Of a stretch of 37,817 nucleotides of DNA, positions 18,970-23,121 are shown piece after piece (position 1 is the first letter of the stretch; each line of letters starts with the position of its first letter). Below the pieces are notes generated by a model that worked only from the letters and a program-made list of their open reading frames with translations, was not told the DNA's origin and did not search any database. Source of the DNA: a virus; IMG/VR virus record IMGVR_UViG_3300037507_000290, positions 1 to 37,817 of that record. The stretch is one strand, 5' to 3'. The translations under genes and the position numbers were made by a program.

Positions 18970-18998
18970 TTGACACGTTAGGACTTACGGCGTAAAGT
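18970..18998 (+). promoter_or_regulatory. Candidate early promoter, TTGACA-17-TAAAGT
   Basis: A perfect -35 TTGACA (18970-18975), a 17-base spacer and -10 TAAAGT (18993-18998, four of six matches). Transcription would start near 19005, right before a 5' hairpin (19007-19028), the start-associated sequence and the ATG at 19042. It fits recognition by the host housekeeping sigma factor as an immediate-early promoter for the whole plus-strand unit. Confidence 0.6.
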
Positions 18999-19006
18999 TC
19001 TACCTA

Positions 19007-19028
19007 TCGGCAGGAGATACCTAGCCGA
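19007..19028 (+). promoter_or_regulatory. 5'-terminal leader hairpin of the early unit
   Basis: TCGGC (19007-19011) pairs with GCCGA (19024-19028) and, inside, AGG (19012-19014) with CCT (19020-19022), leaving an AGATA loop and one bulged A. With the predicted transcription start near 19005 the mRNA would begin with this hairpin. The start-associated sequence follows at once (19029-19038). The same hairpin-then-GACAGGAG order recurs in the next four gaps. Confidence 0.55.
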
Positions 19029-19041
19029 GACAGGAGAAGAA

Positions 19042-19263
19042 ATGAGCAAGAAAATCGGTTTAGGAGATTCTGTTAGTTCAATGGAATCCTCGAACTGTTG
19101 CCAGTGCGGGAAGAAAGTCGGAAAGAATCCATTTTGGATTCACCTTTCAAACTCGGGGCGCATTTTGAATCCAAATGAAGAAAATCCATCTTCGCAAGGA
19201 TTCTTTCCAATCGGCTCGGAATGCGCTAAGGGTTTCGAATCCGAAATGCTAGTGAGAAATTAG
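19042..19263 (+). CDS. Small Cys-containing (zinc-ribbon-like) early protein
   Basis: 73 residues, first gene of the early unit. It has NCCQCGKKVGKN with a CxxC-type knuckle (Cys19/20 and Cys22) and a later IGSECAKGF Cys, so metal binding is possible but the usual second CxxC pair is missing. ATG 19042 follows GACAGGAGAA by three bases. Early position suggests a host-takeover role. The last base of its TAG stop is part of stem II of the ribozyme that follows. No family recognised. Confidence 0.7.
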   Translation: MSKKIGLGDSVSSMESSNCCQCGKKVGKNPFWIHLSNSGRILNPNEENPSSQGFFPIGSECAKGFESEMLVRN

Positions 19264-19316
19264 GCGAAACCCCGCAAGGGGTCACGGGTGGAATGGTCTC
19301 CCCCGTCTGATGAGCC
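19263..19316 (+). ncRNA. Hammerhead ribozyme 1 (type II, complete core)
   Basis: Circularly permuted type-II hammerhead. Order: GGC then GAAA (19266-19269); stem III CCCC-GCAA-GGGG (19270-19281) capped by a GNRA loop; UC (19282-19283); stem I ACGGG...CCCGT (19284-19288 with 19302-19306) plus three more pairs after a bulge; CTGATGA (19307-19313); then GCC (19314-19316) closing stem II with GGC (19263-19265). All invariant nucleotides (C3 U4 G5 A6 U7 G8 A9, G12 A13 A14, A15.1-U16.1, C17) are present. Predicted self-cleavage lies between 19283 and 19284. The downstream product starts with stem I, then GACAGGAGAA and the metalloprotease ATG. Stem II is short (3 bp) and begins inside the upstream stop codon. 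Confidence 0.9.
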
Positions 19317-19345
19317 AGACCAAAAGAAAGACAGGAGAAGAAAAA

Positions 19346-19966
19346 ATGAAGACGCAAATCGAATCCAAAACCGAGAACCTATCGGGAATCGTGACCGCCT
19401 TAGAATCGGCTCACGCCCTTATTCAAGAGAAGACAGGCGCACCCCGCGCAACTATCCTAGTCACCCGCAAAACAGGGCGCACGATGGGGCACTTTACTCA
19501 CGCAAAACTATGGAAAGCAGGCGAGGAATCTTTCCACGAGATTATGATATCCGCGAACTATTTCGAGCGCGGGGCGCGGGCTGTCCTTGGCACTCTTCTT
19601 CACGAGGTGGCGCATTCCCTAGACCTAGCAAATGGAATCCAAGGCGTGACGGGCGATGGGTACCATAATAAAAAGTTCAAGCAGACCGCCGAGGCTCTCG
19701 GGCTCACAATCACACAAGCCAAGGGTATCGGGTGGAGCGTGACCGACGTATCCGATGAATGCGCCGATCGATGGGCGGATGCCCTAGCCTTGATTGAGAA
19801 TGCCCTCGCACTTATGGCAGATTCCGAGCAGGCAGGCAAGACACGAGGCAGAAATAAGAATCTATTGAAAGCGGTCTGTGAATGTTCAAGTATCCGCGCA
19901 AGTGCTACAGTTATCGAACAAGGCGTGACCTGTAACAAGTGCGGGCAGGTCTTCCGCAAGGCGTAA
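19346..19966 (+). CDS. SprT-like zinc metalloprotease
   Basis: 206 residues. I start it at ATG 19346, six bases after GACAGGAGAA; an in-frame ATG at 19310 lies inside the hammerhead core (ctgATGag) and is not a plausible start. The zincin motif HEVAH (86-90) with a third ligand in GYHNKKF (His107) gives an active-site zinc, and a C-terminal zinc ribbon has Cys178, Cys180, Cys196 and Cys199 (CEC...CNKCG). This is the SprT/Spartan layout. Spartan-type enzymes cut DNA-bound proteins, and phage homologues of unknown target are common in actinophage early regions. Possible roles are removal of host DNA-bound proteins or protection of replicating phage DNA (inference). Confidence 0.85.
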   Translation: MKTQIESKTENLSGIVTALESAHALIQEKTGAPRATILVTRKTGRTMGHFTHAKLWKAGEESFHEIMISANYFERGARAVLGTLLHEVAHSLDLANGIQGVTGDGYHNKKFKQTAEALGLTITQAKGIGWSVTDVSDECADRWADALALIENALALMADSEQAGKTRGRNKNLLKAVCECSSIRASATVIEQGVTCNKCGQVFRKA

Positions 19967-19970
19967 CACA

Positions 19971-20036
19971 GGGCGAAACCTAGCCCCGAGAAATCGGGGC
20001 GATGGTCTCGGGGTAAATGCCCCGACTGATGAGCCT
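19971..20036 (+). ncRNA. Hammerhead ribozyme 2 (type II, complete core)
   Basis: Same permuted order as ribozyme 1 with different stems, so it is not a simple recent duplicate. GGGC (19971-19974), GAAA (19975-19978), stem III with CC/GG at its base and CCCCGA-GAAA-TCGGGG above an internal loop (19979-20005), UC (20006-20007), a perfect 6-bp stem I TCGGGG-TAAATG-CCCCGA (20008-20025), CTGATGA (20026-20032), then GCCT (20033-20036) pairing with GGGC. Every invariant core base is present. Predicted cleavage is between 20007 and 20008. Downstream lies CTTACGACAGGAGAA and the ATG at 20076; the upstream stop ends at 19966. Confidence 0.92.
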
Positions 20037-20075
20037 AAGAAACTTTCAGACTTACGACAGGAGAAAAGCACTACT

Positions 20076-20525: not shown

Positions 20526-20532
20526 CACGACA

Positions 20533-20605
20533 GCCCCCGCACCTACAGAGGGCGCAGGTTCAAGACCTAGCGGGGGCGCGACAGGATAGGAAAGCCCTAT
20601 CTTGT
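20533..20605 (+). ncRNA. Unrecognised structured RNA, copy A (possible ribozyme)
   Basis: Lies in the gap between two early genes where the preceding gaps carry hammerheads. An outer stem of 8 bp pairs GCCCCCGC (20533-20540) with GCGGGGGC (20570-20577). Inside are two hairpins: CCT-ACAG-AGG (20542-20551) and AGGT/ACCT (20556-20559 with 20565-20568), with a GCGC linker and a single A before the outer stem closes. A 10-bp hairpin ACAGGATAGG/CCTATCTTGT (20581-20605) follows, then AAGACAGGAGAA. Copy B (20956-21024) keeps all stems with different base pairs and shares ACAGAGGGCG exactly. No U-tract follows, so it is not a terminator. I do not match it to a known ribozyme class. Confidence 0.7.
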
Positions 20606-20630
20606 GACGTAAGACAGGAGAAATAAGAAA

Positions 20631-20786
20631 ATGAACGAGCAGGATAAGCAAAATCTAAGCACGATTTACTATCACGCCTCGACTATTCGCCTACTGACCG
20701 ACGATAAGCAGGTACTCAAATCGGTGGCAAGAATTGAAGACCTTGTGGGGGAAATGTTCAAGGCTAGCGAGAAGGTAGGCGCGTAA
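20631..20786 (+). CDS. Tiny early protein (51 aa), unknown
   Basis: ATG 20631 lies eight bases after GACAGGAGAA; stop TAA 20784-20786. The product is MNEQDKQNLSTIYYHASTIR followed by LLTDDKQVLKSVARIEDLVG and EMFKASEKVGA, two amphipathic helices. Stop and next start overlap as TAATG, so the pair is co-translated. No family recognised. Confidence 0.7.
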   Translation: MNEQDKQNLSTIYYHASTIRLLTDDKQVLKSVARIEDLVGEMFKASEKVGA

Positions 20787-20944
20787 TGGAACTAGACGTG
20801 GCAATCTGGAACGGCAAGAAGAATAAGGTTCTCACAGTTGAAACTTTCAACTCATCAAAAGAGGCTCTCGACTTTCTAAAAGAGGTTCAACTATTGGACA
20901 AGGAGGCGAGCCTCACAGTAAGCGCAATCAGAAAAACCAAGTGA
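20786..20944 (+). CDS. Tiny early protein (52 aa), unknown
   Basis: ATG 20786 shares an A with the upstream TAA; stop TGA 20942-20944. Sequence begins MELDVAIWNGKKNKVLTVET and ends SLTVSAIRKTK. It looks like a small alpha/beta fold (strand, helix SSKEALDFLKEV, strand). There is no independent ribosome-binding site, so translation depends on the upstream gene. Function unknown. Confidence 0.68.
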   Translation: MELDVAIWNGKKNKVLTVETFNSSKEALDFLKEVQLLDKEASLTVSAIRKTK

Positions 20945-20955
20945 GGTAACTCACA

Positions 20956-21024
20956 GCCCCGCACTCTTGACAGAGGGCGAATGGAGCGAGACCATAGCGG
21001 GGCACGAGGCGGAAAGTATCCGCC
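20956..21024 (+). ncRNA. Unrecognised structured RNA, copy B (possible ribozyme)
   Basis: Same design as copy A: outer stem GCCCCGC (20956-20962) with GCGGGGC (20997-21003); hairpin CTCT-TGAC-AGAG (20964-20975); GGCGA linker; hairpin ATGG/CCAT (20981-20984 with 20992-20995); one A; then a following hairpin GGCGGA-AAGTA-TCCGCC (21008-21024) and AAGTAAGACAGGAGAA. Compared with copy A, both inner hairpins and the trailing hairpin changed on both sides and kept pairing, while ACAGAGGGCG (20970-20979) is unchanged. This is what a conserved functional RNA looks like. A conserved GGGCG might also pair with CGCCC/GCCCT in the trailing hairpin, giving a possible switch. Confidence 0.7.
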
Positions 21025-21046
21025 CAAGTAAGACAGGAGAAAAAAG

Positions 21047-21475: not shown

Positions 21476-21503
21476 TCTAACGACTTACGACAGGAGAAAG
21501 ACA

Positions 21504-21647: not shown

Positions 21648-21811
21648 CCCCGCGCTGCGGTGTATGTGGTGGTGGAATATCAAATACCATCGTCCCTCAC
21701 GGGGCAATCTGCGAGGACAATCGCAAGGCGCAAAGTTCGCCCATATGTGGCGACTGCCTAGCACCTCTCTCAGAATGTATTCATAGTTACTACCTAAGAC
21801 AGGAGAAATAA
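21644..21811 (+). CDS. Small zinc-ribbon-like protein (55 aa)
   Basis: ATG 21644 overlaps the previous stop. The product begins MTPRCGVCGGGISNTIVPHG, with a second CxxC (SPICGDCLAPLSEC), giving four Cys in two CxxC pairs about 30 residues apart, a plausible zinc ribbon. It ends YYLRQEK, with the last codons reading through the start-associated sequence of the next gene (AAGACAGGAGAAATAA). Possibly an RNA polymerase- or DNA-binding early protein (inference). Confidence 0.72.
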   Translation: MTPRCGVCGGGISNTIVPHGAICEDNRKAQSSPICGDCLAPLSECIHSYYLRQEK

Positions 21812-22260: not shown

Positions 22261-22434
22261 ATGGAAACCCTAATAGAAATCTTGACAGGCACACACATCG
22301 GCGGTATCTTCGCACTACTTCAGACGATTCTCTACGTGTTGATTCTCTTCACAGTAGCGGTCCTCTCGTGGTGGTTGGCGATAGTAATTACAGACCTGAA
22401 GAAAAAACTACGACGTAAGACAGGAGAAAAATAA
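22261..22434 (+). CDS. Small single-span membrane protein (57 aa)
   Basis: ATG 22261 directly follows the previous TAA. The product has one clear hydrophobic span of about 27 residues (LLQTILYVLILFTVAVLSWW then LAIVI) followed by a Lys/Arg-rich tail (DLKKKLRRKTGEK), which predicts the C-terminus in the cytoplasm. Early expression argues against lysis; superinfection exclusion or membrane remodelling are possible (inference). Its last codons encode the GACAGGAGAA motif of the next gene. Confidence 0.72.
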   Translation: METLIEILTGTHIGGIFALLQTILYVLILFTVAVLSWWLAIVITDLKKKLRRKTGEK

Positions 22435-22910: not shown

Positions 22911-23121
22911 GGTTACTTACGAACTAAAGGGCGTTCGTATCATAGATGTCACCGCAGATTCAAACAAGTTGCCAGATAATTTTGATGTCCTAAGTCCGCA
23001 AGAACAAGACGAGTTGCTCTATGAGACTCAAGTCTTTTCAGTCCTACACACAGAGGACATTGACTACGGCAAAGCCGTCTCTGTCCTGCCACTTCGAGAG
23101 AATCTAAAGGTGGTTCAGTAA
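22894..23121 (+). CDS. Small early protein (75 aa), unknown
   Basis: 75 residues; begins NKTYRVTYELKGVRIIDVTA, a beta-hairpin-like start, followed by an acidic helical region (SPQEQDELLYETQVFSVLHT). ATG 22894 lies inside the end of the previous gene behind GGCGGAAC. The stop shares TAATG with the WhiB gene. Function unknown. Confidence 0.7.
   Translation: MNKTYRVTYELKGVRIIDVTADSNKLPDNFDVLSPQEQDELLYETQVFSVLHTEDIDYGKAVSVLPLRENLKVVQ

Follow-up and report, generated by a model that had tools for sequence, protein, structure and literature searches.

Results

Two tRNA-like elements in the early operon

The window, by which we mean the whole stretch of DNA analyzed, is a 37.8-kb virus record. Its late genes are encoded on the minus strand, and an early operon occupies the plus strand from ∼19.04 kb. 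Most early genes are preceded by near-identical copies of a Shine-Dalgarno block, (A/G)(A/C)GACAGGAGAA (Table 1). The first early gene has a leader (18995–19035) that lies 3′ of a TTGACA-type promoter and carries a hairpin (CGGCAGGAGATACCTAGCCG) like the trailing hairpins listed in the table. A preliminary description of this DNA had placed hammerhead ribozymes in the two gaps ahead of the structured elements. We found the same, at the Rfam gathering score in gap 1 and weakly in gap 2; from hammerhead architecture, cuts would be expected after C19283 and C20007, respectively. Element A occupies the gap 3′ of the gene next after the gap-2 hammerhead, and element B the gap 3′ of two short genes beyond element A.

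Table 1. Features of the early region, with element positions in distant phages in the last line. R1 and R2 are the covariance models described in the text.
Feature	Position	Strand	Basis or remark
Type II hammerhead ribozyme, gap 1	19262–19324	+	Rfam RF02276, 42.5 bits, above gathering
SprT-like metallopeptidase gene, anchor for relatives	19310–19966	+	phrog_6361; homologues annotated SprT-like
Second hammerhead, gap 2	19970–20037	+	sequence; weak Hammerhead_3 match, E 0.5
tRNA-like element A	20533–20577	+	fold, relatives; R2 match E 2.3e-10 (this copy is itself in the alignment behind R2)
Element A outer stem, 8 bp	20533–20540/20570–20577		
Element A first hairpin	20542–20544/20550–20552		
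Element A T arm	20556–20558/20566–20568		loop UUCAAGA 20559–20565
Element A mismatch layer	C20555.A20569		
Element A 3′ flank G73 C74 G75	20578–20580		
Trailing hairpin, copy A	20581–20605	+	fold; trailing-hairpin statistics
Shine-Dalgarno block AAGACAGGAGAA	20611–20622	+	sequence; next start codon 20631
Upstream hairpin of copy B, GUGAG-GUAA-CUCAC	20941–20954	+	GNRA loop; includes upstream gene's UGA stop codon
tRNA-like element B	20956–21003	+	fold, relatives; R1 E 1.5e-17, R2 E 2.4e-16 (both models built partly on this copy)
Element B outer stem, 7 bp	20956–20962/20997–21003		
Element B first hairpin	20964–20967/20974–20977		
Element B T arm	20981–20984/20992–20995		loop AGCGAGA 20985–20991
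Element B mismatch layer	A20980.A20996		
Element B 3′ flank A73 C74 G75	21004–21006		
Trailing hairpin, copy B	21008–21024	+	fold
Shine-Dalgarno block AAGACAGGAGAA	21030–21041	+	sequence; next start codon 21047
All blocks (A/G)(A/C)GACAGGAGAA	19027–19038, 19328–19339, 20054–20065, 20611–20622, 21030–21041, 21487–21498, 21796–21807, 22417–22428		
Elements directly 5′ of a promoter, distant phages	L143:3172–3229, L127:4687–4744, L140:4835–4893, L141:4708–4765		

The preliminary description had proposed two copies of a structured RNA at 20533–20605 and 20956–21024. Our analysis recovered both, with the same coordinates and parts, and each folds better than 200/200 dinucleotide shuffles (z −3.9 and −4.6 for copies A and B). 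The segment said to be identical in the two, ACAGAGGGCG, occurs exactly twice in the window. The inner hairpins are real, but the CCT/AGG pairing given for copy A is out of register: CCU at 20542–20544 pairs with GGG at 20550–20552, which leaves CGC as linker. We adopted this register because relatives carry CCC..GGG, CCG..CGG, and CCCG..CGGG. Similarly, the single A noted before closure is present but serves as the 3′ partner in a C.A or A.A mismatch, and the stack runs on through this layer.

The copies had also been reported to fit no known ribozyme class. In agreement with this, the Rfam 15 models, self-cleaving ribozyme families included, gave no match at E ≤ 5 anywhere in 20533–21024, so the family is a structured RNA that Rfam models do not recognize at the window sites. 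HDV, twister, pistol, and other small ribozymes, which had failed to fit by eye, are rejected by Rfam at the same threshold. Hammerhead identity was likewise discarded, with the CUGANGA...GAAA...NUH core absent by eye and no Rfam match at E ≤ 5.

A covarying family in related phages

Relatives were gathered as two sets. The first comprised 35 IMG/VR loci found with the 218-residue SprT-like early protein, with more added by core-pattern scan, and the second comprised 80 loci found by terminase alignment and selected independently of the element. A first covariance model (R1), built from 19 type-B sequences, yielded 117 matches (E ≤ 5) from the first set; from the terminase set it yielded 44, of which 44/44 lie on the early-gene strand. 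A wider model (R2) gave 53 and 124 matches. Covariance-model searching, which the preliminary description had proposed as a check, returned homologues in related phages: 121 distinct sequences (one incomplete and one unusually short match omitted). Many of these are closely related and cannot be counted as independent events. Although pattern and model searches favor family-like sequences, the canonical T loops of distant members were absent from the first training set. The element was present in 24 of the 34 terminase loci that have at least 2.9 kb of early side.

Compensatory change had been read from the two window copies, which alone are no proof of covariation; the relatives supply it. 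Among the 19 type-B sequences, 8 of 15 pairs change on both sides, with a covariation score of 0.33 versus 0.11 ± 0.016 for shuffled alignments. In the family alignment of 100 distinct rows, which was fitted to the model and is biased towards it, both-side changes occur in 14 of 15 pairs, 98.4% of pair cells are paired, and the score is 0.551 versus 0.141 ± 0.008 shuffled and ≤0.07 with partners slid. Covariation together with exact placement led us to reject a functionless paralogous repeat pair.

Outside this group, the type-B core pattern was found in none of the ∼85,000 bacterial and archaeal genomes scanned, and the Streptomyces phages Percastrophe and Manuel (terminase identity 46% and 45%) had no match below E 0.6. 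With a type-B sequence as query, BLAST of the phage collection matched only the two Planktophila phages, and with a distant member it gave only weak, chance-level matches. Neither Rfam nor the open-licence papers searched in full text describe the family.

Cultured representatives are available. Phages LanE43AprE7 and LanE43AprF5 (OX376640/41), isolated on 'Ca. Planktophila landstejnensis' LanE-43 (PMC10202952), carry three and two element copies, respectively, with G1 bases at complement 1434, 1794, and 2208 in LanE43AprE7 and at 23036 and 23538 in LanE43AprF5. Their terminases are 78% identical to that of the window, and we infer that the window phage infects a host similar to LanE-43. The phage group is known to infect abundant freshwater bacteria.

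Resemblance to the acceptor/T-arm domain of tRNA

The consensus begins with a 7- or 8-bp outer stem from G1, usually one unpaired A/C, a short variable hairpin, and a linker. The T arm follows, with a 7-base loop [U/A/C][U/G]C[A/G]N[G/A/U]N whose closing pair is usually G-C, then, in most members, an A facing C, A, or G. The outer stem's 3′ strand and A/G-C-[G/U/A] complete the consensus. Judged by its sequence, the element is a ∼50-base tRNA mimic without an anticodon arm. Its parts read as an acceptor stem and a T arm, with a short hairpin where tRNA has its D and anticodon arms and with R73-C74 flanking the 3′ side.

Individual positions were scored with a parser that handled 116 of the 121 members. 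The stack of outer stem, mismatch layer, and T stem has 12 layers in 99/116 and 11 in the other 17/116; the acceptor and T stems of tRNA likewise sum to 12. Its division varies (7+mismatch+4, 8+mismatch+3, 7+5, 8+4, 6+6), one part lengthening as the other shortens. Parsed members carry G1 in 114/116, A or G at N73 in 116/116, and C74 in 115/116, and N-1 and N73 are complementary in 0/116. Position 57 of the T loop is a purine in 112/112 seven-base loops. C56 is found in all parsed members, as the parser required, with U in 2 of the 5 unparsed ones. Other positions are unlike tRNA: about one in three members has C or T at T-loop position 58, and position 60 is usually A. C75, the pairing partner of E. 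coli RNase P RNA, is present in 1/116. We could make out no partner for the T loop in the first hairpin. The third pair of the outer stem, C3-G70 (20535/20575 and 20958/21001), is C-G in 121/121 distinct members, with adjacent pairs varying freely.

In four distant members (L143, L127, L141, and L146), a canonical 5-bp T stem with loop UUCGAUA is joined directly to the 7-bp stem, and the loop of the first hairpin contains GG, as in a D loop. When L143:3160–3240 (81 bases) was scanned alone, its best Rfam match was mascRNA-menRNA (RF01684) at E 0.013 and 21.2 bits, below the gathering score of 42.5. In the 1.43-Mb LanE-43 genome, the only match of the family model at E < 5 was a tRNA gene, a weak one (E 2.8); run against the host tRNA loci, the model gave matches that all cover the T arm and the acceptor 3′ strand (best E 0.12). 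ARAGORN found 0 tRNA genes in the window and no ordinary tRNA at the elements, and the Rfam tRNA model (RF00005) had no match there, the anticodon arm being absent.

Placement in gaps that hammerheads also hold

Without exception, the elements are encoded on the early strand. In the first set, the end of the upstream stop codon is nearly always ≤24 nt from G1, and the next start codon, where found, is 30–57 nt past the outer stem. The preliminary description had stated that the elements sit in hammerhead-type slots, and the relatives bear this out, as orthologous gaps swap between the two. For the gap after SprT, 35 distinct related loci have a hammerhead in 25, an element in 10, and, by this scoring, both or neither in 0; the 10 include one locus (L084) that overlaps another (L025), lay outside the model search, and received a 'none' from the script, although its sequence plainly carries the element. 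One phage (L122) has a hammerhead 5′ of SprT and an element 3′ of it. Another (L130) has an element in both gaps around SprT (L130:4760–4811 and the gap after), the window having hammerheads in both. Where the gap before SprT was scored 'none', a promoter region mostly precedes the gene, though three loci (L017, L020, and L080) have coding sequence there. In some distant phages, the element lies outside operon gaps, between a stop codon and a sigma70-like TTGACT-17-TATACT promoter (Table 1), a position that suits 3′-end formation of the upstream unit.

The gaps also differ in what follows. A trailing hairpin of ≥5 bp that begins within 8 nt is found in 87/113 element gaps, compared with 30/113 shuffled and 0/40 hammerhead gaps. 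By analogy with tRNA 3′ processing, a hairpin right after N73 suggests a second cut just past N73. On the other side, about a third of distinct upstream flanks (52/140) have a GUGAN-GNRA-NUCAC hairpin that includes the UGA stop codon. This hairpin precedes type-B elements, and its fifth pair covaries (G-C 31, C-G 8, T-A 7).

Host tRNA genes and RNase P

RNase P accepts substrates made of the acceptor/T-arm domain alone, and such hairpins are good substrates (McClain 1987, as cited in PMC11143913). In LanE-43 (OX376642, L176), C74 is present in 32/32 distinct tRNA genes examined and followed by a non-C base in 22/32, with CCA encoded in only 9. Phage elements and host tRNA genes thus have a 3′ pattern in common, in which C74 is kept and C75 is mostly absent. 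E. coli RNase P RNA has GGU in its P15 region. The class A RNase P RNA of the host has C-GUUUG in that region, without an obvious GGU; on one alignment, its CGU would pair with A73-C74-G75, the commonest element flank. An RNase Z profile gave only weak matches in LanE-43, in long reading frames, and a broad beta-lactamase-fold model returned the same two frames and one weak 235-residue frame.

Discussion

We consider it likely that the RNase P of the host cleaves on the 5′ side of the element and so divides the early mRNA gene by gene. On a polycistronic early transcript, host RNase P would recognize the 12-layer acceptor/T-arm stack and cut before G1, at 20532|20533 and 20955|20956. Each cut would create a 3′ end for the upstream gene and a 5′ end for the downstream one, as hammerhead self-cleavage would do in neighboring gaps. 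Where a GUGAN-GNRA-NUCAC hairpin is present, it would then form the 3′-terminal hairpin of the upstream mRNA. As a plausible second step, host tRNA 3′ processing may cut just after N73, making the trailing hairpin the new 5′ end; the downstream product of a hammerhead starts with its own stem I hairpin. Because the elements share gaps with hammerheads, the enzymes with which the host matures its tRNAs probably cleave the phage message into pieces of one gene each. The sequence comparisons show the family, its structure, its likeness to tRNA, its exact intergenic placement, and its interchange with hammerheads; we infer the cleavage, the enzyme, and any effect on mRNA life and translation.

The preliminary description had offered two readings, a new self-cleaving class or another early-mRNA processing or stability element. 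A role in early-mRNA processing is probable. A small self-cleaving ribozyme replacing the hammerhead might be expected from the interchange in orthologous gaps, the compact three-way junction, and the strong covariation, yet the comparison of distant members does not support it. The nucleotides constant among these are the tRNA-type acceptor stem, T arm, and 3′ flank, plus C3-G70. The stem, T loop, R73-C74, and 12 layers hold, whereas the first hairpin and junction vary freely. No catalytic core remains, because the first hairpin, the site of ACAGAGGGCG, differs in sequence and size. The family model also falls on host tRNA genes, and we regard a new ribozyme class as very unlikely.

Two further readings dispense with either cleavage or the division of mRNA. 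A tRNA-like end stabilizer or protein-binding element could shield the 5′ or 3′ end of the mRNA, or recruit a tRNA-binding protein, with no cut at all. The fold is stable, many copies are flanked by hairpins on both sides, and 3′-end protection would fit the members just 5′ of promoters. The stack length, the unpaired N-1/N73, and G1 are instead features of a cleavage substrate, and the gaps are held in common with hammerheads, which cut; we find this reading unlikely. The element resembles mascRNA and could be released if cut at both ends, so that processing might serve production of a free small RNA, a decoy or regulator, rather than mRNA division. Set against this are the precise position of the copies, between a stop codon and the ribosome site of the next gene, and the hammerheads that hold the same gaps and yield no such RNA; we consider a small RNA precursor highly improbable.

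Division of the early message by RNase P would have several partial precedents. The mascRNA-menRNA element at the end of MALAT1/MEN-beta is likewise an anticodon-arm-poor tRNA mimic with acceptor stem and T arm, at which RNase P (and RNase Z) separates the upstream transcript from what follows. It comes from mammalian long noncoding RNAs, and the phage element, which falls below that family's cut-off, is shorter, lies between protein genes, and occupies several gaps per genome. AT1-type RNase P model substrates (McClain et al. 1987) share the acceptor stem, T stem, T loop, and 12-bp stack and are cut 5′ of G1. They are synthetic and carry RCCA, whereas the phage element is natural, has an additional hairpin, and is flanked by ACG, ACU, or ACA. 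In mitochondrial tRNA punctuation, tRNA-processing enzymes cut messages at tRNA-shaped intergenic spacers, as we propose for the phage; the mitochondrial spacers are working tRNAs, the phage ones anticodon-less mimics that alternate with hammerheads. The C4 antisense RNA precursor of phages P1 and P7 is likewise a phage transcript cut by host RNase P (reference listed in PMC11143913). C4 is a single regulatory antisense RNA, and the elements have no C4 Rfam match at E ≤ 5. The hammerheads themselves (RF02276, RF00008) occupy the same gaps in the same orientation and, after SprT, are mutually exclusive with the element, which has no hammerhead core and differs in its trailing hairpin.

It is likely, in our view, that a group of actinobacterial phages divides its early message gene by gene with two interchangeable devices, self-cleaving hammerheads and tRNA mimics dependent on host RNase P, with individual gaps having switched between a cis- and a trans-acting ribozyme. 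Because the cultured LanE43AprE7 and LanE43AprF5 carry the element, transcript ends are directly measurable. If the proposal holds, the elements would be natural minimal RNase P substrates serving as phage gene separators, a viral 'tRNA punctuation' without tRNAs, and orthologous gaps would show a self-cleaving ribozyme replaced by a signal for the host's ribozyme, or the reverse. What hammerheads in phage genomes are for would become a testable question. The family would also offer >100 naturally occurring versions of the smallest tRNA shape with which to study RNase P recognition, notably where host tRNA genes keep C74 and not CCA.
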